The notes under the pieces are model-generated. The model searched no databases. It was not told the origin of the DNA and saw only the letters and a list, made by a program, of their open reading frames with translations. This document shows, piece by piece, positions 38,431 to 48,697 of a stretch of 48,805 nt of DNA. Position 1 is the stretch's first letter; every line of letters starts with the position of its first letter. Both the position numbers and the translations under genes were made by a program. This DNA is from Gallionella sp. (GTDB lineage Bacteria > Pseudomonadota > Gammaproteobacteria > Burkholderiales > Gallionellaceae), in the NCBI GenBank assembly GCA_017880865.1, contig JADGRL010000020.1:1-48805 (forward strand), given 5' to 3'.

Positions 38431-41400
38431 TCAAGGGGTGGGTTGATCGAATTGGTCTGCGTCCAGGGTAGGTAGACTTGCCCAAACCGCAATAATGAAG
38501 AGGGCACGATTGAGTGTGCGCTGATAACCCAGTTGGTGTTTTTTTCCTTTTTCGGACTGCAATATAAGGCCGATTCGGCTGTTCGAATTTGTTTTTTCCG
38601 AGCTATGCGATAGTCGTTTATCTTGGCGAACGGGCAGCCCAAGCGATTTTAGATATTTCTCCGTTGGCTCCCAAAATGCTGGTTCATCCTTATTGGGATT
38701 TGCTGGAATGATTGCATCCAAATCAGCCGGCGAAATACCAAACTCTTTCATGGCATCCAATAGCGCCACCAGATCGCTACGTTTAGTAATAAGAAGATAA
38801 GTCTTGTGCGGGTGATAGGCATCAATCCAGATTTGGCTTGCGATGGTTGGTGATCCGGAATCTATTGCGGATTTACTTATGGCTTCTAAAAAAACACGAA
38901 CCCGCTGCGATTCTTTATCAAGGGTTGTACCACGTGATGCAGGCTTAAATACCCAAGGATCATCGGGGTTAGTCTGCGGAATGGCAAAATCGGCAAAACC
39001 AGTCCGCTCTTGGAGCATTGAAGCGGACAACAAAGTTGATGTGACAATCCTATTTGTAGTAAGAAATCGATCTGCGAGACCATCAATCGAATCACGCAAT
39101 GTAGCGATTGCCAATAATCGATCAACATCCGCTGGAGTGAGAGTTGATTGTGCGGAAAGAGTTGTAGGCGACGAAACGTCGTGTTGAAGACCCGACTGTA
39201 GTTTCGGGGTGGGAATAGTCGATTTCCGCATGAAATATTCTGATAGTGAAGCTAGTGAAGCTAGTGAAGCACCCTTTCCCAATCGTGATCTGACCTGACG
39301 CATATTATCGTAGGATGTCTGGAAGGCGTAAGCAAGAGCCTTGTCGTCCATGTTTACTGTTTCCTTAACGATCCATTCCTTGAGTACGATGTCGGCAAGA
39401 TGAACATAATGTCGGTGCGTAACATCGGGACTGGCGTGGCCCATGAACAGTGCCATCGCGTACAAACCCCGGCGCGACAGGCGAGAGTTTCCGATCAGGA
39501 TGTCGCGAACGTCCTTGGGAGAAACATCATCCCACAGCGCACGATAAATGTCGCCCAAGCGCCCGAACGGGACATTATCCAGAATCATTGCCAGAAAGAG
39601 GCGTGTTGCGCATGTGTGACGCAAGTGACGAAGTCGAATTTGTTGATCACCAGTCACCGCGCGCAAAGCTTCAACCACAACGCGTACACTCTCACTGCGG
39701 TCAGCCAAGTCGCGTTTGCCGGATAGCTTGGAAAACAGCGCCGCCAGATTGTCATTATCGGCATATGTTTCTACATGCGCCAGCCACATTGTTACAAGGT
39801 CGCGTTCCACCTCGCTTAATTTTCCGATCAGTGGCAGCTGGCGAACGCCGTTATCTGTCTTTGTTTCACCATGGACGCTGTTGCGTATATATACGACCAT
39901 CTCACCATCTTGCAGTATTACATCGGAAATGGTCAGTCGAATTATTTCTCCGGTGCGCAAGCCAAATCGATATCCGAAGAACAGAATGGCGGCATGCCGT
40001 AATCTTTGTTTAAAATCTGGATGGCTGGGGTCCTTTAATAGAATATCCAGAGCTTTTCCGTACTCCTCAGTTGTGACAATTCCGGCATCAACGGCTTCTG
40101 CTTCCACTAAATCTTCATCGATAACTTCACTCCAATCCACCGCCGGCATGGCGTAGGTGGAAATTAGGAATGCATGGAAGTTCTTCACGCGCTTCGCAAC
40201 GTATGCTCGATTATTGACTGTTGCAGAAGCTAGCACATCGCGATAGATGGCCTCAATTTGCAGATCCGACAGCGCGAGAAAGTCGAATTCATATGCCAGT
40301 GAAATTAACCGGTTGCCGATCGTTCTGCCGTAGGTAATTACTGAGCTAGCAGCCAAATCGGGTTCTTTTATAGTGCCATTGCGGCACAAATGAATTACCC
40401 AGGCAGCGACAAGCCCGCCGATGGGCGGAAAGACCTTTGATTTGTCATTGAGTAAATCATGAATTCGCGACTCTACCTTTCCTTTTTTGGCATTGGAGCG
40501 CGCATCAGTTTTACCTGTACCCTTATTTCTTGGCGATGGACCAAAGGCCTTATTGATTTCATCCCAGAACGCCATTGCCTGCTTGAAGTCTCCAGCCTGG
40601 TTAAATTGTTTTATCGGTTGGATGTCATCGCATGGAGCGGTGGTGGGCAAAGTACTTGGTGTCGTGTTCAGTGTGCCGGATTCCCCGGTAACGAGCCTGA
40701 GCCAGTTTGATAGTGGGACTGATGCGCAGGGAATTTCACCCTCAGCATAAGCGCGAATCACACCCGGCAGGCGAAATCGCCAACGGTGTCTGGAAAGTTG
40801 GATCAAGGGAAGCAGCAGCTCACTTATTGCTGGTGGAATTTTCGATTTCTTTCCTCTCGATTTTATTTTCTGTCTGGGTGCCTTGATGAGCTGCAGAATT
40901 TCATCGAGTGATTGGGATACCTTTTCAGCCGAAGGTGCGGGCTGGTTTTGATCAAAACTTTTCCAGTAACCCAGAAGAAGTGCACATGACACCTTATCAG
41001 GCATCCAGCGGCGAATTGGCGATTCGGCAGATTCATAGATATCGACAATCAGTTCGCCATCAATGCGGTTAATGCGACCGCCAAGTCCGGTTGCAAGGGT
41101 ATCAAGAAAACGTGGTGATGACTGTGCGCCAAAAATGCATGAAGAAATTAATATTTCCGCAATCCTCATTTCAATACTTGGGCCTTTCCAGGCCTTTGAT
41201 GACAGATATGAAAGGAATCGATTTCCAATTTCGTCAGTTATTGATGCGGCACGGGAAGAGTCTGTGTCGAAACATGATGGTTCTTTATTTGCTAATGCCA
41301 GCCTTCCAGGAATCTTGACTGATTTTCCCGCTCGCTTGAGTTTGAGCAGATGCCTGCGAAACAGCGACAGTCGGATCAGAACTCTTCCGTCTGCAGATTT

Positions 41401-42378
41401 ATTTTTAATTATGTCCTGTAGCGAATCCACATCTGCATCGGGAATTACATCGGGTGTGCCTGTTGAAAATTTTTCCTTGAATAATGTGAGCACGGCTTCG
41501 GTATCATTTTGCAAAGTATTTTCACGATTTGCAGATCGTACCTTGGGGCCGAACGGGATTGATGCTTTGAGATGTTTGGAATTAATTGACGGGCGGCATA
41601 CAGGAAATCTGCTCGGTGCGCTCAGCCCCTCCACCTCACTCCACCCTTGTTCCTTAAGATAGGCCTCAAGTAAGGAAATAACAATGCCTGCAACGACCTC
41701 TGGGGCAAGCGGAGATCTTGCACTAAACGGTGAGCATCCCGCTTCGATGTGGCCAAGTTGTGCGTCGATCACCTCAGATGGGCAATTATTTTCATGCAGC
41801 CAGGATGAAAGTAAATGTCTGTTTGAGTTTAGGGGCAATATCCAGGCGCTGCCTAGCATCGCTTTGAGCGTGGACGGTTGAATGCGAATCCATTCCATCT
41901 CACCATCCTTTTCCTGAAGGAAGAAAAACAAGGGAATTGGATGCGGATAGTCCGGTTCGGTCACGGCCCAAATCTGGTTCGCTAGTATTGAGTTTTGTGG
42001 CCGGATGTATCTGGATAAACTACGCAGATGCGCAATGTAATTTTCGAGTTGTGAAATAGCTTGGGGAGGCAACCAAGCGATGCGGGTTTGATGTGCCGAA
42101 CTGACTACTTTGTCCTCGATGAGGACTGTGCGATTTTTGACATCGAAAGTACATAAATCGAAAAACGGATCGCTTACGGCTCGATGCTCGGTCGCGAAAG
42201 CGAGCATTTGCTGGGTATATAGCGCCATTGCATTGTGAGCCTCAACTAGCGACTTGCCTTTTTTAGAAACCAGACTGCTACAGTTGTTTTTCATAAAAGC
42301 AACGAACTCCATGACTTTAGAAAGTTCCGGAGTTAAATAGCTGCCTATGAGGGTTTTTTTAGCTGCAGAATCGGTCAT
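38431..42378 (-). CDS. Giant tyrosine recombinase (1315 aa)
   Basis: A site-specific recombinase far longer than the usual 300-450 residues. The intact catalytic core lies at about residues 780-1000: Arg in GLRTGEIIRL (about 807), HLRHTCATRLF (H-x-x-R, about 915), MGHASPDVTHRHYVH with His (about 979) and the Tyr nucleophile (about 989). The N-terminal part has a second, degenerate recombinase-like motif near residues 190-225 (RHLLSSWL, then AQLGH), suggesting a duplicated or fused core. A tail of about 300 residues follows the catalytic domain. Its ATG overlaps the 829-aa gene by four bases, so the two work together. Function as an integrase is inferred from the motifs. Confidence 0.85.
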   Translation of the reverse strand: MTDSAAKKTLIGSYLTPELSKVMEFVAFMKNNCSSLVSKKGKSLVEAHNAMALYTQQMLAFATEHRAVSDPFFDLCTFDVKNRTVLIEDKVVSSAHQTRIAWLPPQAISQLENYIAHLRSLSRYIRPQNSILANQIWAVTEPDYPHPIPLFFFLQEKDGEMEWIRIQPSTLKAMLGSAWILPLNSNRHLLSSWLHENNCPSEVIDAQLGHIEAGCSPFSARSPLAPEVVAGIVISLLEAYLKEQGWSEVEGLSAPSRFPVCRPSINSKHLKASIPFGPKVRSANRENTLQNDTEAVLTLFKEKFSTGTPDVIPDADVDSLQDIIKNKSADGRVLIRLSLFRRHLLKLKRAGKSVKIPGRLALANKEPSCFDTDSSRAASITDEIGNRFLSYLSSKAWKGPSIEMRIAEILISSCIFGAQSSPRFLDTLATGLGGRINRIDGELIVDIYESAESPIRRWMPDKVSCALLLGYWKSFDQNQPAPSAEKVSQSLDEILQLIKAPRQKIKSRGKKSKIPPAISELLLPLIQLSRHRWRFRLPGVIRAYAEGEIPCASVPLSNWLRLVTGESGTLNTTPSTLPTTAPCDDIQPIKQFNQAGDFKQAMAFWDEINKAFGPSPRNKGTGKTDARSNAKKGKVESRIHDLLNDKSKVFPPIGGLVAAWVIHLCRNGTIKEPDLAASSVITYGRTIGNRLISLAYEFDFLALSDLQIEAIYRDVLASATVNNRAYVAKRVKNFHAFLISTYAMPAVDWSEVIDEDLVEAEAVDAGIVTTEEYGKALDILLKDPSHPDFKQRLRHAAILFFGYRFGLRTGEIIRLTISDVILQDGEMVVYIRNSVHGETKTDNGVRQLPLIGKLSEVERDLVTMWLAHVETYADNDNLAALFSKLSGKRDLADRSESVRVVVEALRAVTGDQQIRLRHLRHTCATRLFLAMILDNVPFGRLGDIYRALWDDVSPKDVRDILIGNSRLSRRGLYAMALFMGHASPDVTHRHYVHLADIVLKEWIVKETVNMDDKALAYAFQTSYDNMRQVRSRLGKGASLASLASLSEYFMRKSTIPTPKLQSGLQHDVSSPTTLSAQSTLTPADVDRLLAIATLRDSIDGLADRFLTTNRIVTSTLLSASMLQERTGFADFAIPQTNPDDPWVFKPASRGTTLDKESQRVRVFLEAISKSAIDSGSPTIASQIWIDAYHPHKTYLLITKRSDLVALLDAMKEFGISPADLDAIIPANPNKDEPAFWEPTEKYLKSLGLPVRQDKRLSHSSEKTNSNSRIGLILQSEKGKKHQLGYQRTLNRALFIIAVWASLPTLDADQFDQPTP

Positions 42379-44864
42379 GATTCCTTCCCTAAAATTCGTG
42401 TTGTGGCCTGATCGTATATTTGGCGCAATACGTCTTCAGAATAGGAGGTGTAGTAGACGCCCGCGGGTGGCATGTCAGTGGGAAGCGACGACAGGAGGTG
42501 AGTGGCAACCGGATCTTGAGCAACCCGCATGATCTCTGCACTCAATACATTTCTTATTTTTCCAGGCAAGAGGCGCATGTCCCGCGTCCTATGCTGTTCG
42601 AGAAACTGGCGGACAACTTTGTCTGCTCCTGCATTATCCAGTTTTAGATATGCGCCAATATTTTTATATTGAAGGTTAGGTTTGACATTTGAGTCGATCA
42701 AACCAAGCTCTCCGAAAAGGGCTGGAAATGGCGGCGCTAATGAAAGATCGATAAATTGGCCGTGATTTCCTAGAAGGATTTTTTCCTGCTCACTTGGTCG
42801 AAATGCGTGAGGCGGGCTTTGGATGTACTTACGATATACTGGGCCGAATATTAACGCTCCCCGAATGTTCGCTGAGTGTGTAAGACACAGTTGCAATATT
42901 TGATCGATGCTCTGGCCGATTGCCAGCATCAGCCAGACAAGAAATGCGCCCTGTTTTTCTGAGACGGAAGCATTTTCGAGAGTAGCGCTATCCTTCAATG
43001 CGTGCCTGAGAGCCACAATCTCAAATTTGTTTAAACAATCCCAAGCCCAAGGCAATCGCTGGTTATCCATTGCCGTGCGGTAGTTTGTATATCGAACTTC
43101 TAGTGATTGCACAGCGGCCAGTTGGACTGGCTGGTCTACAGGTGTGTCCTGCAGTGGAATGATATGAATCATGTCAGGTGCAAGACCATCGGAATCTGCA
43201 TCAACATGCGCCCTCTGTTTTGGAAACAAATTGAACGATGGCCGGACCGAATGTTTTCGCCCCGAGCGTGAATAATTATTGGTGGCAGGCTGGATTACTA
43301 CTGAATGGTCTTGCTCTTGCAAGGGTAACTTCGTGACAGTATGTTCGTGCCTGGGTGTATTTTTTTGATTTTGATTTGTATATTCTAAAATCAGTTGTAT
43401 TGTATGAATGAATGAGTGTTTATCTGGATATCTCAAATATGGGTTAGTTGGTGGAGTTTCATTTGCTTTTTCAAAGAATAACTCTTTCCATTTTTCGGGT
43501 GAGGAGATTGGCCATTCAGGAAGGTACATCTGTGCAAGTTGGAGGTGAGTCCATTTGAGCGTGCAACACTTTCGGATTGTGTTGGCTAAGATTTTTTCAC
43601 CAACGAAGAAAGTAAACCGTTCAGCAAAATGTAAATCAAGTTCTTCGTAGATAGCGTAATAGCCGCTGAGCAAAATTGCCTTGGCCGGAAGAAGTCCTGA
43701 TGGAGCCGCTTTGTCTATCTCGGTAACAAGGCAAGAAATAAGGGGATGTTCACCAAGCTTGCTGCGCCAATATTTTTCTTGAGGTAACAAAGGTGAACTA
43801 CCGAATAAATTTCGCAAAATGTCTAGGACCTTGCAGATAGTGGCTGCCCAGCGCGGCCATATATCTGAAAATCGTGGGCAGAGTGCTTCGGCGATTGGAA
43901 GCAGTGGTTCTATAGCCTGAAGAACTATATCGAGTTTATCGACAGGTCTGTCGCAAAAACTAATTACACTTAAAATTTCGCGAAAGGTTTTTGCTGTAGA
44001 TACTTCATCTGCAGAAGGATTGTCACCTAGGATTATTTTTTCTATTTCGTCTAATCTACTGGGGGGCTGAGTTACCACCGAAGAATGTTGTTTCGGTGAT
44101 TGTGTGTGTATCGGCTGAGCTGGGAGAGGATTCTCTGGTTTGGAAGGCCGGGTATTTACATGCCTGTCGAGTTCGGGAACTAATGTTGCAGAGTTCGTAT
44201 TGGGATTGCTGGTGGCTTTGGGTTGCTGAGAATCTAATTCGTGACTCAGCACTTCCTGTATGCGGATTGTCAGATCGATAATCTTGGATGTAATGATATT
44301 GCTCTGTGATTCGCTGGCTAATGAATCGATTATTCCTTGAAATGAATGAGCGTCGCCAACTAAAGATAAAATTTTATTGGATAATCGATCCCTCATGATT
44401 ATTCGCAGTTCATTTACAAATTTAACGACGTCAGGCGAAACTGGATGCCAAGGCGTATTAGCTTTCCAAGCTTTCGCGAGCAATAATCCAAGAACTATTT
44501 GACAGCCCCAATGGAAAGAAATTTGCGCCTTCCATTGGTTGCCCTGTGTAAACAAGGAATAGACGGGATAATCTTCATACCGCCCGGACATAGGATTATT
44601 GTCTACGCATGATTGACGGAGGCGTGACGGTAGTAGGTCTTTATTTTTACAGATTGAGTGACTCAACGAAACCAACTCGGAGAGTGTGGGTGACGCGGGT
44701 GCCAATCTTAACATTTCGCGGGCTGCTGATTGCATCGAGAAAGCCGCTTCGTAAATGCCCGCGCAATCCTGAGGTGCGTGAATCAGCTCCAGAAGTCTAA
44801 CTAGCTTGTCTGTATCGACGCCCTTGTCTTTAAGCTCTTGAAGTGGGATTTCGAATGAGGCCAA
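42375..44864 (-). CDS. Recombinase-associated 829-aa protein, unknown family
   Basis: An 829-residue protein with no domain I can firmly name. TTG 44864 is the start: MASFEIPLQELK aligns with MTTFKIPIQELK of the truncated paralogue upstream. A Pro/Ser/Gln-rich linker is at about 225-265. The last 100 residues (KIRNVLSAEIMRVAQD, then HLLSSL and YYTSYSEDVL) faintly resemble the end of a tyrosine recombinase, with a Tyr but without the Arg-His-Arg set, so it may be a degenerate recombinase or accessory factor. Coupled by ATGA overlap to the giant recombinase. An 18-base piece of its 5' end recurs at 45525-45542. Confidence 0.65.
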   Translation of the reverse strand: MASFEIPLQELKDKGVDTDKLVRLLELIHAPQDCAGIYEAAFSMQSAAREMLRLAPASPTLSELVSLSHSICKNKDLLPSRLRQSCVDNNPMSGRYEDYPVYSLFTQGNQWKAQISFHWGCQIVLGLLLAKAWKANTPWHPVSPDVVKFVNELRIIMRDRLSNKILSLVGDAHSFQGIIDSLASESQSNIITSKIIDLTIRIQEVLSHELDSQQPKATSNPNTNSATLVPELDRHVNTRPSKPENPLPAQPIHTQSPKQHSSVVTQPPSRLDEIEKIILGDNPSADEVSTAKTFREILSVISFCDRPVDKLDIVLQAIEPLLPIAEALCPRFSDIWPRWAATICKVLDILRNLFGSSPLLPQEKYWRSKLGEHPLISCLVTEIDKAAPSGLLPAKAILLSGYYAIYEELDLHFAERFTFFVGEKILANTIRKCCTLKWTHLQLAQMYLPEWPISSPEKWKELFFEKANETPPTNPYLRYPDKHSFIHTIQLILEYTNQNQKNTPRHEHTVTKLPLQEQDHSVVIQPATNNYSRSGRKHSVRPSFNLFPKQRAHVDADSDGLAPDMIHIIPLQDTPVDQPVQLAAVQSLEVRYTNYRTAMDNQRLPWAWDCLNKFEIVALRHALKDSATLENASVSEKQGAFLVWLMLAIGQSIDQILQLCLTHSANIRGALIFGPVYRKYIQSPPHAFRPSEQEKILLGNHGQFIDLSLAPPFPALFGELGLIDSNVKPNLQYKNIGAYLKLDNAGADKVVRQFLEQHRTRDMRLLPGKIRNVLSAEIMRVAQDPVATHLLSSLPTDMPPAGVYYTSYSEDVLRQIYDQATTRILGKES

Positions 44865-45152
44865 TGGTCATTACTCGTGGTGGTTGCCCAGCATCGTACA
44901 CCGGGGAAATATTTTCAAAAAGTGCAAATAACTGTTGTTGCTACAAGGGGGTGCCAGTAATGCACCATGCTTCAAAGAAGTGAGACTGATCTGTCCTTGA
45001 CCTCGCAGCCTAAATTGCACCTCAATATAATGGTATCTGGCCAGCGCGTACATGCATCTTCTATCTATTCAGCAGGCCGGGATATTTCTTTGTTCGCAGC
45101 GCTTCGAGCACTTTGCCCGTCAGCTTCCACGCATCGCCATTGATGCGTGTGA
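44865..45152. other. Gap between the 829-aa gene and its truncated copy
   Basis: On the minus strand, 45163 to about 45062 reads as a 33-codon ORF starting MELITRINGDAWKLTGKVLE and ending at a TAG. It is joined directly to the truncated paralogue's breakpoint near 45170, so it is probably the tail of an unrelated gene brought in by recombination. I do not recognise it. The rest shows no gene or strong signal. Confidence 0.4.
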
Positions 45153-45455
45153 TCAGTTCCATCCATAGTCATCGTACCTGCCATACATTGGGTTATTGTC
45201 CTCGAGTGATTTTTCCCTAGGTAGTAGATGTGAGTGTGTTGATAAGTTTTGAGTGAAAGATACCAACTCTTCAAGCTTGGCTAATTTTTTTGCCAGACAA
45301 TAGATTGATACAGATGAAGAATGCAGGGTATGAATTATCGCTGCTAAGTTTGAACATTCTGGAGGCGCGCCGATTAGATCCAGAAATTTATTAAGCTTGT
45401 CTACATCCGCACCCATATTTTTGAGCTCTTGAATTGGGATTTTAAATGTAGTCAT
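45153..45455 (-). pseudogene. Truncated paralogue of the 829-aa gene
   Basis: Its 100 residues align along about 96 positions with the N-terminus of the 829-aa protein: FKIPIQELK for FEIPLQELK, DKLNKFLDLIGAP for DKLVRLLELIHAP, and DNNPMYGRYDDY for DNNPMSGRYEDY. It then breaks into foreign sequence and stops. The divergence shows an old duplicate, not a recent copy. It keeps a start and ribosome site (AGAAAG), so a small product may still be made. Confidence 0.75.
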
Positions 45456-45522: not shown

Positions 45523-45636
45523 TCAATCAGCTCCAGAAGTCTCGGCCTGCGTCTTCACGAGGTCAATGTCTTCCGGATAACGCAGCGGCTGTTTGAACAG
45601 CAACTTATTGATACCTGTGCCGCCGCGGAAGGCAAT
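45523..45636 (-). pseudogene. abiEii toxin fragment, middle part
   Basis: The minus strand reads IAFRGGTGINKLLFKQPLRY, then PEDIDLVKTQAE. This is the nucleotidyltransferase core (GGT...N and the DxD) of an AbiEii toxin, truncated on both sides. Its 5' continuation is at 47402-47539; joining them at GGCAAT gives NGKIAFRGGT without shift. Its 3' part is replaced by AATCAGCTCCAGAAGTCT (plus strand), also found in the 829-aa gene. Confidence 0.85.
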
Positions 45637-45642
45637 GTAAGA

Positions 45643-45661
45643 TCCAAAATTATTTGCGAAT
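45643..45661 (+). repeat. Left inverted repeat of the Fic cassette
   Basis: TCCAAAATTATTTGCGAAT on the plus strand. It pairs with the sequence at 47376-47394 with one mismatch at its ninth position. Confidence 0.75.
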
Positions 45662-45675
45662 TATAATATCTACAT

Positions 45676-47238
45676 TTAAGTCTTGAGCGGCGTTAGCCTC
45701 GGCACTTCACCCATTTGTCTTCGCACGGATGCACCAATAAACTCGGCAAACGGCTCAATTTTTCCTTTCACGCTGGCTTGTTCAAGCGAGGCCATGTAGC
45801 TGTCTCGATCTTCAACACGGATGACCGTCCACGGGTATCCTCCGGACGCAAGCATTGAATTCATCAGGAACCGCGCCATGCGTCCATTTCCATCCCCATA
45901 AGGATGAATATAGACAAATACAAAATGTCCGAGCACAGCACGGACAGCTGGATCCGGTTCCTTCGAGATTATGTCGAAAAATACCGGCATGGCTTCGCGC
46001 ACAGACTCATAGGATGGCGGCACATGTCGGGCATAGCGAATGAACACCGGCCAGGAACGATAGCCGGCGAGGTGTTTTGCTTCAAGGATGCCGCTCGTGA
46101 CCGAAGGCTCGAAAAGTTTCCGGTACCAGTCATGATGGTCGTGCCGAACCACGTTGCCGGGTTCGGTTCGCTCCAAAATTTGCGACACGCTTTTACGAAC
46201 CTCAAGAAACGCCTGATGGTAGCCTTTGGCTGCCAGTGCATTGCGATCATTTCGGTCTTTGCTATTCTCTTCTGGGTTCCATTGGCCGGACGCGATCTTG
46301 GCGATCATATCTTCCGTCACTCGATAGCCCTCAATTGACAGTGAGTGATAGGCATCTTCGACATGACGGTCGTCGACGTCGGCGATGTAGGCCTCGATGT
46401 CACCCGGCAATCCAGGTGCCGGCGGAAATGCACTGATCACCGCCTCCCGCATTGATTCCCACATCAGTCTGATTCGGATTGCACAAGCTGATTCAGCACG
46501 CGACTGAGTCGGTAAGGATTTCGGCGGAACCTGAAAAGGGTCTGTTTCGGTGACTGCATAACCGGCATCTTGCATGGTTCGAACGATACGGTCACTTTCA
46601 TTGGCACGTCCAATCGCGCGCATCGCGCCGGCAATTCGCCCTGCAACGACCGAATTCCCGCCCTCCAGAATCTTAGCCAGTATTTCTGATGCATCCGAAA
46701 TCTGCGATAACGCGATCTGCGCATCAATCGGGTTCGTCTCGAAGATTGTCGGTGACGCACGTACCAGCGATGTGGGCAACGATAGCAAACGAACGCCATC
46801 TTTCACGACAATATCAGTCCCAGAGGCGAAATCCTTTGAACGGTAATCAAAAAGACCTGTCTCGAATTTAAGCGTGAGATTGTTGTTCGATCCGGTTTTG
46901 GTGTGAATCATCAGCTGACGAGGGATCGTTGTATTACCGGCATGCCTTTGTAGTGACGCTTCGGGCGAAAGGTACCAATCATTGCCGAACCGAACATTGC
47001 AGTATGCACTGACGAATTCGAAGAAAGAGGCATACCAGGCAGTCGATTCTCCTGCTTTTTCAACTGGATTTGAAACGATATACCAGCCCTTGACGACTTC
47101 TTTTATAAAGCCTGCAGCAGCCAGTCGCTCACGATGAACGCGACTGAAGTCACCGCTCTGAAATACGCGCCGCCCTTTATCCTGCTCAATTTTCAGGAGT
47201 TTCAACGATTCTGCAAGCTTTTCATGTGGGGTAGCCAT
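45676..47238 (-). CDS. Fic-domain protein with N-terminal winged-helix region
   Basis: A 520-residue Fic protein, probably an AMP-transferase acting on protein hydroxyls. The active-site loop HPYGDGNGRMARFL (about residues 444-457) fits HPFx(D/E)GNGRxxR with a full set of key residues. The SxxxEG motif in SLSIEGYRVTE (about 298) is the inhibitory helix, so it is self-inhibited (class II type). Residues 1-75 look like a winged-helix/AbiEi-like N-terminal domain (VFQSGDFSRVHRERL). ATG 47238 follows GAGG. Two 48-base direct repeats lie at the promoter. It is the only gene of the insert in abiEii. Confidence 0.9.
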   Translation of the reverse strand: MATPHEKLAESLKLLKIEQDKGRRVFQSGDFSRVHRERLAAAGFIKEVVKGWYIVSNPVEKAGESTAWYASFFEFVSAYCNVRFGNDWYLSPEASLQRHAGNTTIPRQLMIHTKTGSNNNLTLKFETGLFDYRSKDFASGTDIVVKDGVRLLSLPTSLVRASPTIFETNPIDAQIALSQISDASEILAKILEGGNSVVAGRIAGAMRAIGRANESDRIVRTMQDAGYAVTETDPFQVPPKSLPTQSRAESACAIRIRLMWESMREAVISAFPPAPGLPGDIEAYIADVDDRHVEDAYHSLSIEGYRVTEDMIAKIASGQWNPEENSKDRNDRNALAAKGYHQAFLEVRKSVSQILERTEPGNVVRHDHHDWYRKLFEPSVTSGILEAKHLAGYRSWPVFIRYARHVPPSYESVREAMPVFFDIISKEPDPAVRAVLGHFVFVYIHPYGDGNGRMARFLMNSMLASGGYPWTVIRVEDRDSYMASLEQASVKGKIEPFAEFIGASVRRQMGEVPRLTPLKT

Positions 47239-47250
47239 AACAGACCTCGT

Positions 47251-47336
47251 CAAGTTTATTGCGTATTACTATGGCACGTCTATCGTGCATTGCAATAGCA
47301 AGTTTATTGCGTATCACTATAGCACGTCTATCGTGC
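47251..47336. promoter_or_regulatory. Two 48-bp tandem repeats with GCACG palindromes at the fic promoter
   Basis: CAAGTTTATTGCGTAT...GCACGTCTATCGTGC occurs at 47251-47288 and again at 47299-47336, a period of 48. Each unit ends in the palindrome GCACG-TCTAT-CGTGC (47274-47288 and 47322-47336). Their position directly upstream of fic suggests paired operators, perhaps bound by the Fic protein's own winged helix. On the minus strand a TATAGT near 47320 may be a -10 box. Confidence 0.7.
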
Positions 47337-47375
47337 TGAACAAAAGTAACACTGTAATCGCATTTACCTATGTTC

Positions 47376-47394
47376 ATTCGCAAATTATTTTGGA
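47376..47394 (-). repeat. Right inverted repeat of the Fic cassette
   Basis: On the minus strand it reads TCCAAAATAATTTGCGAAT, matching the left repeat at 18 of 19 positions. Confidence 0.75.
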
Positions 47395-47401
47395 GTTAGC
47401 G

Positions 47402-47539
47402 GGCAATCTTGCCGTTCAGTGCAGGCGCATTGAACAGGTCGCACCGCGCACGGCAGATGATCAAGTCCTGTTCGACCTGCCGCCAATCGGGCCAGGGTGC
47501 CTTCGCACTCCATGCCTGGATGTATGAGCTGGGAATCAA
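47402..47539 (-). pseudogene. abiEii toxin fragment, 5' end
   Basis: From TTG 47539, overlapping the abiEi stop as is normal for the pair, the frame reads 46 codons: IPSSYIQAWSAKAPWPDWRQ, then VEQDLIICRA, and ends NGKIA where the Fic cassette begins. This is the typical N-terminus of an AbiEii toxin. The next codons run into the insert and stop at once. Confidence 0.85.
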
Positions 47540-47830
47540 AAGTCGATCCCCACGGGTTCATTGATTACGAGCTTCCACTTGACATCTTTCTTGTGAAGTT
47601 CGGCAAGAGATTCGAGCAGAAGTTTAACAGAAGGATCCAGTGGCACAGCCGTTTTAGCCTTCTTGACGAAAGGTTCCAGCGCATTGGTCTGGCGCACTTG
47701 GCCAACACGGTCGAGCAAATAGCCGAGCCTGCGCACGGGCGAGTTCTCGTAGGCAGAGGCCACATTCGCAAGGGTGGGCGGATCAGCCTTAGCCCCGATA
47801 TCCTTGGCGAGCTGCGCGACTCCATTGATC
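47536..47830 (-). pseudogene. abiEi antitoxin, C-terminal remnant
   Basis: The minus strand encodes INGVAQLAKDIGAK, then SAYENSPVRRLGYLLDRVGQ and the family's end KWKLVINEPVGIDF. This is the C-terminal half of an AbiEi-type antitoxin; the winged-helix N-terminus is gone upstream of about 47830. An internal ATG at 47763 could still give a 75-residue product. With abiEii broken, the system is inactive. Confidence 0.8.
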
Positions 47831-48063: not shown

Positions 48064-48110
48064 TTATAGTGTTGCCTTTTATATGCAAGTGGTCATAATA
48101 ACCACTATAA
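48064..48110. promoter_or_regulatory. Inverted repeat spanning the hicA start
   Basis: TTATAGTG (48064-48071) and CACTATAA (48103-48110) are perfect complements flanking the hicA start region. HicB-type antitoxins usually bind inverted repeats at this place, so it is a likely operator. Confidence 0.45.
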
Positions 48111-48289
48111 ACAGCAAGCAAATCATTAAGCAGCTTGAAGCGGACGGCTGGACACTACGTGGTGTGAAGGGTAGTCATCACGTTTTTACGCACCCTAGCA
48201 AGCTGGGACACATCAGTGTGCCGCACCCCAAGCAGGATTTGGGCGTTGGATTGGTGCACAAGCTGCTGAAACAAGCTGGATTGAAATAA
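48083..48289 (+). CDS. hicA: HicA toxin
   Basis: A 68-residue double-stranded-RNA-binding-fold mRNA interferase. NSKQIIKQLEADGWTLRGVKGSHHVFTHP carries the catalytic His in GSHH, and the C-terminal VPHPKQDLGVGLVHKLLKQAGL is the family hallmark. ATG 48083 is used although no ribosome site is visible; family members usually start near the NSKQ, so the first seven to nine residues are unsure. Followed by hicB with a 12-base gap. Confidence 0.88.
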   Translation: MQVVIITTINSKQIIKQLEADGWTLRGVKGSHHVFTHPSKLGHISVPHPKQDLGVGLVHKLLKQAGLK

Positions 48290-48301
48290 AGGAGACTGAC
48301 C

Positions 48302-48697
48302 ATGAAATTCATTATCGCGATTGAGCCGGGCACTGACACCACCGCATTCGGTGTTGTTGTACCAGACCTGCCAGGCTGCTTTTCGGCTGGGGATACTTTG
48401 GATAAAGCCGTGGATAACGCCCGCGAGGCGATTGATTTGTGGTGCGAAACAGTGATCGAGGACGGCGGCGATGTCCCTGTTGCCAAGTCCTTGGCAGAGC
48501 ATCAAATCGATCCTGATTTTGCAGGCTGGATTTGGGCGGTTATTGAAGTGCCAGTTGAGCGTTATTTCGGCCCAGCAGAAAAACTCAACATCACCTTGCC
48601 GCGCTTGTTGCTGGCAAAGATTGATGAGTACACCCACGCCCACGGCGAAACACGCTCCGGCTTTCTGGCTGAAGCTGCACGGATGGCGATGCGCTAA
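48302..48697 (+). CDS. hicB: HicB antitoxin
   Basis: A 131-residue antitoxin with the partial RNase H-like fold at the N-terminus (AFGVVVPDLPGCFSAGDTLDKAVDNAREAI, typical of HicB) and a C-terminal ribbon-helix-helix segment (NITLPRLLLAKIDEYTHAHGETRSGFLAEAARMAM) for DNA binding. AAGGAG lies eight bases before ATG. It neutralises HicA and probably represses the pair. Confidence 0.92.
   Translation: MKFIIAIEPGTDTTAFGVVVPDLPGCFSAGDTLDKAVDNAREAIDLWCETVIEDGGDVPVAKSLAEHQIDPDFAGWIWAVIEVPVERYFGPAEKLNITLPRLLLAKIDEYTHAHGETRSGFLAEAARMAMR

Follow-up and report, generated by a model that had tools for sequence, protein, structure and literature searches.

The window, i.e., the whole stretch of DNA analyzed here (48,805 nucleotides), is a complete contig (C16) of a 2.85-Mb Gallionella sp. 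draft genome (G000) assembled into 84 contigs with an estimated completeness of 95.5%. Towards one end it carries a 1766-bp element (positions 45636-47401) bounded by inverted repeats of 19 bp with one mismatch and flanked by a 5-bp direct duplication (Table 1). Open reading frame (ORF) and repeat analyses confirmed that a fic gene and the repeated block upstream of it are the only contents of the element; tnsA, tnsB, tnsC/tniB, and tniQ are all absent, and fic stands alone between the tips. The element lies within what remains of an abiEii toxin gene, next to a remnant of abiEi.

Table 1. Features of the element and of the interrupted abiE genes, in window coordinates.
Feature	Position	Strand	Basis or remark
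abiEii middle piece, left of the element; rest of 3′ part missing	45541-45635	-	85% identity to L176 1411-1503
Target duplication, left copy (GGCAA)	45631-45635	none	5-bp size from G011 and G109
Left tip, TGTAAGA plus 19-bp site (45643-45661)	45636-45661	+	23/26 bases identical to G109 left end
fic, 520 aa from ATG at 47238, no internal stop	45676-47238	-	Pfam Fic, E 2.2e-11
FICD-like Fic domain, residues 256-516 of the Fic protein (P0001)	45706-46488	-	
Catalytic motif HPYGDGNGR, residues 450-458	45880-45906	-	8/9 positions invariant in 30 aligned sequences
SLSIEG, inhibitory-type motif, residues 304-309	46327-46344	-	Invariant in 30 aligned sequences
N-terminal half, residues 1-245, predicted AbiEi-type fold	46519-47253	-	
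24-nt direct repeats (48-nt block, twice), candidate operator/promoter region	47251-47346	-	Repeat search
Weak second right-end site (12.1 bits), 20 bp inward of the outermost one	47356-47374	-	
Right tip, CGCTAAC plus 19-bp site (47376-47394)	47376-47401	-	40/49 first columns identical to G109 right end
Target duplication, right copy (GGCAA)	47402-47406	none	Matches left copy
abiEii 5′ piece	47402-47539	-	Within 91% match to L176; start set by L176 ORF
abiEi 3′ piece; 5′ part missing	47536-47829	-	L176 match ends at 47829

An uninterrupted counterpart of the insertion site is present in the same genome. The 5′ piece of abiEii (45 aa) has one other match, with 91% identity, on contig C51 (L176), and none at E <= 1e-4 in the other 75 genomes of the genus; at L176, a 281-aa AbiEi ORF is followed by an unbroken AbiEii ORF of 289 aa. 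When aligned alone to L176, the right flank of the element matched at 91% from position 47403 and the left flank at 85% up to position 45633, the two flanks meeting on the same L176 bases while the element itself had no match there. Outside the borders, ungapped identity to L176 was 363/399 and 78/93, compared to 9/40 and 11/40 inside them. One flank, translated separately, ends with ALNGKIA and the other opens with IAFRGGT, and L176 reads NGKIAFRGGT continuously. An initial annotation of the window from its letters alone had interpreted abiEii as split by a transposase-less, inverted-repeat insert with fic as passenger, and had predicted NGKIAFRGGT for the collapsed junction. The ORFs, the flanks, and the L176 paralogue, which provides the empty site, support this interpretation; the meeting of the separately aligned flanks on L176, together with the unbroken NGKIAFRGGT there, thus indicates that the insertion is real.

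Since both abiEii and abiEi are truncated, the locus is not, however, a working toxin gene with a single insertion. The match of the abiEii 3′ part to the paralogue stops at position 45541, and from the alignments the losses of the abiEii 3′ part and of the abiEi 5′ part are events separate from the insertion. The abiE-bearing stretch exists in this genome as two diverged copies (85 to 92% identity), one on C51 (L176:462-1928) and the other in the window (44754-45170, 45541-45633, and 47403-47829), the latter being rearranged, with positions 45355-45448 forming a second, 80% copy of L176 472-565. Genes for a HicA toxin and a HicB-like antitoxin (48083-48697) adjoin the abiE remnant. Elsewhere in the window, a tyrosine-recombinase domain protein of 1315 aa (38431-42378, minus strand) and its neighbor of 829 aa, which has no Pfam match (42375-44864, minus strand), may form the core of an integrating element.

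The borders of the element and the size of the duplication were set by comparison with complete relatives in the genus (G011 and G109; see below). GGCAAT is indeed present at both junctions (45631-45636 and 47402-47407), as initially annotated, but its sixth base already belongs to the element, being the first of its bases, and the relatives give a 5-bp duplication, GGCAA. The 6-bp duplication was consequently dropped, along with the asymmetry of the outer ends that had been noted, which disappears once the ends are aligned to the relatives' tips, and the length of the insert was corrected from 1765 to 1766 bp. The inverted repeats themselves held up: the two arms, whose pairing can be extended to 33 nt at 79% identity, are the only 0-mismatch matches to the 19-bp repeat pattern in the window genome, where the pattern has two further matches at 3 mismatches and the reversed control pattern has three. 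The left tip begins with TGT and the right tip with CGC, where the relatives have TGT. Two predicted transposase-binding sites were found in the right end (26.8 and 12.1 bits) and one in the left end. Dif/Xer-type modules were considered and dropped by eye.

When up to 2 mismatches were allowed, the 19-mer had seven matches in five of the 76 genomes of the genus, i.e., two each in the window genome and G109 and one each in G112, G022, and G008, while the reversed control gave three; the G022 and G008 matches were regarded as chance hits. The tip in G109 (L148) is directly ahead of genes for TnsA, a TnsB-like transposase, TniB, and TniQ, and that in G112 (L151) is ahead of TnsA, TnsB, and TniB within a gene of the comM type. 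Searching with this TnsB detected it in 10 of the 76 genomes, the window genome not being one of them, and led to a third left end in G011 (L165), likewise ahead of TnsA, TnsB, and TniB; the G011 ends were left out of the site matrix that located them. Of 11 tnsB places, nine were examined (all except those in G028 and G027), and the three closest have these ends; the distant tnsB genes (37 to 48% identity) were rejected as a source of the ends, none of the six examined showing a site of >=16 bits.

The left ends of G109, G112, and G011 are all composed of TGTAA, site 1, 13 nt, and site 2, the last of which is absent from the window element. The opposite ends, found on G109 contig C3 (L149) and in G011 (L230), have three sites with a 20-bp spacing; beside them are ORFs of 549 and 597 aa, 26% alike over 313 columns and without a profile match, which by position were taken for TnsE. 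The G011 element is complete on one contig (38559-68914, 30.4 kb), with both comM parts outside it and the 5-bp target duplication GTGGC at both borders. In G109 the duplication is GCAAC, also 5 bp, and the two ends, on two contigs, are inferred to belong to one element. The G109 element (L164:2168-13005 and L149:2112-3038) appears to carry SspF-, SspG-, SspH-, and SspB-type defense genes, together with a SIR2/ThsA-like and an NsnA-like gene. At L149:5055-6020 (G109:C3), its right end is at the 3′ end of a lipoyl synthase-like gene (named by eye) rather than in comM, and the use of a different target by this element is possible.

Two broader searches defined how distinctive such ends are. An end model built from six tips and run over the 76 genomes recovered its six inputs at E <= 1.9e-4, with the next best hit at 0.0498; because the top hits are the inputs, this result speaks for the rarity of the ends and is not independent support, and the model can miss diverged ends, as the real G011 right end scored E 0.68. 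In an order-wide pattern scan, 78 of 399 genomes matched with up to 3 mismatches, the reversed control also matching often, and the window left tip was the only 0-mismatch match. The 17-nt core of the repeat was found in at least 118 stretches over many phyla in a large collection, with one match each among the 80 matches listed, and these were taken as mostly chance. A match in a viral contig (L235), among phage-type ORFs and covering only model positions 7 to 26 with no TGT tip, was also considered chance. By their gene set and target, the relatives are assigned to the Tn6022-like (Tn7-like) transposons, and the sequence comparison identifies the ends of the window element as the outermost transposase-site-type repeats of this family.

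Searches of the window genome (95.5% complete) detected neither a tnsB at E <= 1e-10 nor a TniQ. Four weak matches to the TniB profile, two of them over the cut-off, were in ORFs of 477 to 894 aa; the profile matched in all 14 control genomes too. In Tn7 transposition, both the tips and the inner sites matter, and with its CGC right tip and missing left site 2 the window copy is predicted to be grounded, i.e., it is probably immobile.

The passenger gene is intact. The fic ORF (45676-47253, minus strand) encodes 525 aa from a TTG, with the first ATG at 47238, and its dN/dS is 0.097 to 0.127 against three orthologues. The C-terminal part (residues 256-516) resembles class II Fic proteins (FICD, 4u04) and has both the Fic motif and, ahead of the Fic core, an (S/T)xxxE(G/N)-type motif, SLSIEG, which from class II Fic proteins we take to be inhibitory; AMP transfer is predicted. 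The predicted fold of residues 1-245 is like that of AbiEi antitoxins (6y8q), which comprise a winged helix and a C-terminal domain, although neither Pfam nor PADLOC gave a match for this half at E <= 1, AbiEi models included. In a structure search with the full-length protein, the Fic domain filled the list and AbiEi was absent among the matches listed. PADLOC SoFic/PDC matches covered the Fic part, and a Pfam match to VbhA that fell short of the cut-off (E 0.0018) was set aside. The fic product is predicted to be a single polypeptide combining an AbiEi-type DNA-binding half and a FICD-like AMP-transferase half, unlike the AbiEi antitoxins and class II Fic proteins with which it was compared. 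A period of 24 nt is also seen upstream of several fic relatives.

The gene is not tied to these ends. All 16 other fic loci lack them; the occurrence of the same fic arrangement without the repeats, which the initial annotation had set against its own interpretation, is therefore a fact for the gene, which does not depend on this vehicle, while the insertion itself is unaffected. The closest Fic relative with an organism name is from Gallionella sp. (84%), and a Fic protein with 95% identity (P0002) is encoded on a metagenome contig of 43,448 bases. Among plasmid records with a Fic relative, 340 of 341 were below 60% identity, and no relative was confirmed among the 11 viral-contig stretches checked. 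In G015, fic pieces on three contigs (C39, C11, and C82), with the same C-terminal region represented on two of these, hint at more than one copy in that genome. That a predicted AbiEi-Fic protein sits in an abiEii gene is probably a coincidence.

We consider it somewhat more probable than any other single account, and slightly better than an even chance, that a complete Tn6022-like transposon with fic as cargo entered abiEii and that an internal deletion later left only the tips and fic. The insertion would have been the work of TnsA/TnsB machinery of the relatives' type, the deletion would have removed left-end site 2 and all the tns genes, leaving fic intact, and the right tip would have decayed to CGC from TGT. 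In favor of this account are ends that can be aligned base by base to those of complete relatives, the matching size of the duplication, the uninterrupted paralogue in the same genome, the lack of tnsB and TniQ hits there, and the intact fic gene. The loss of left site 2, retained in all three close relatives, fits a deletion. Against this reading, only a single copy is known, from which deletions before and after the jump are indistinguishable; the right tip does not read TGT as in the relatives, and the second right-end site is weak; no complete Tn7-like element with this fic as cargo was found in a relative; and tns genes could sit in a gap of the assembly. The alternative that the 1.77-kb unit was already devoid of tns genes when it jumped, and was mobilized in trans by a Tn6022-like machine, is a serious contender to which we attach distinctly lower probability. 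The borders and the duplication are equally compatible with transposition of the unit as it now stands, the genus includes relatives that have the machine, three of them close, and comparable cassettes have been published for insertion sequences (PMC3913671). However, no second pair of tns-less ends was detected by the end model in the 76 genomes, a search from which weak ends can escape (cf. the score of the real G011 right end), and the element has one left-end site versus two in 3/3 relatives. Shrinkage after the jump is favored because a one-site left end would be a poor substrate and no second copy was found. The fuller proposal of a trans-mobilized Tn7-like miniature, in which a self-regulating AbiEi-Fic fusion travels between minimal Tn7 ends, is regarded as a touch more doubtful still.

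Two further accounts would deny the Tn7 connection or the transposition altogether. That the element is an unrelated, insertion sequence-type cassette with a merely accidental similarity between its repeats and Tn7-like sites could draw on the ease with which AT-rich 19-mers match by chance, as the many stretches with the 17-nt core and the tipless viral contig illustrate, and on the right tip not being TGT. The likeness nevertheless exceeds the 19 bp, extending to the tips, the site spacing, and 40/49 right-end columns, and the 5-bp size of the duplication is shared with the family, making this account improbable. Least credible of all is an assembly artifact or a chance recombination junction without transposition: the assembly is indeed a draft in 84 contigs, and abiEii and abiEi are broken by other rearrangements too, but the only two exact repeats of the genome lie there, inverted, exactly where the match to the paralogue breaks, and accompanied by the 5-bp duplication.

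Tn6022-like Tn7 transposons are described as encoding TnsA, TnsB, TnsC, TniQ, TnsF, and TnsE and targeting comM (PMC10293859). The window element is like them in its end sequences, right-end site spacing, and 5-bp duplication, as are three relatives in the genus with TnsA, TnsB, and TniB, two of which (G112 and G011) are in comM; it differs in having no tns genes, one left-end site, and a changed right tip, and in residing in abiEii instead of comM. The family typically has TGT...ACA tips and enters comM by way of TniQ/TnsF; no TnsF gene was identified in the genus relatives examined. In a survey of Tn7-like cargo, Fic/Doc was listed for seven transposons and AbiEii for 19 (PMC8649781), and the G109 element, with its Ssp-type genes, likewise appears to carry defense cargo; the survey delimited elements around tnsB, so that one without tnsB would be invisible to it. 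Mobile insertion cassettes, with inverted repeats, target duplication, a passenger gene, and no transposase (PMC3913671), share this architecture with the window element, but their ends derive from an insertion sequence, whereas those of the window element derive from a Tn7-like family and its movement in trans is only putative. Fic and AbiEii as Tn7-like cargo and transposase-less passenger cassettes of insertion sequences are thus already in print (PMC8649781 and PMC3913671). Among the matches listed in the open-access literature, none described a tns-less Tn7-like element that occurs naturally and carries a cargo gene, and none an AbiEi-Fic fusion.

As for the passenger, the closest comparison is CccR, a Fic protein acting as repressor of the promoter of its own gene (PMC9755527). 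The two are alike in the combination of Fic and DNA-binding domains and in the repeats near the promoter, through which CccR represses itself, and differ in that the DNA-binding domain of CccR is C-terminal and its operator palindromic; self-repression is only predicted here. By the model proposed for the element, the AbiEi-type half would repress the protein's own promoter via the 24-nt repeats, the AMP-transferase half would be kept inactive by the SLSIEG helix that it contains, and the product would function as a toxin or defense protein that regulates itself.

Overall, the locus illustrates that the limits of a transposon remnant can be fixed with single-base precision through its tips, a 5-bp duplication, and an empty site in the same genome. 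Cargo surveys anchored on tnsB, such as the one cited above, miss elements without this gene, although the ends still reveal the cargo. If the unit did move in trans as a miniature, it would represent a hidden class of Tn7 passengers unseen by such surveys, captured here as it inserted into a competing AbiE system and disrupted it. The locus also points to a widespread Fic family with a predicted AbiEi-like N-terminal half and, in several members, 24-nt repeats upstream, which offers a testable one-protein toxin-antitoxin design.
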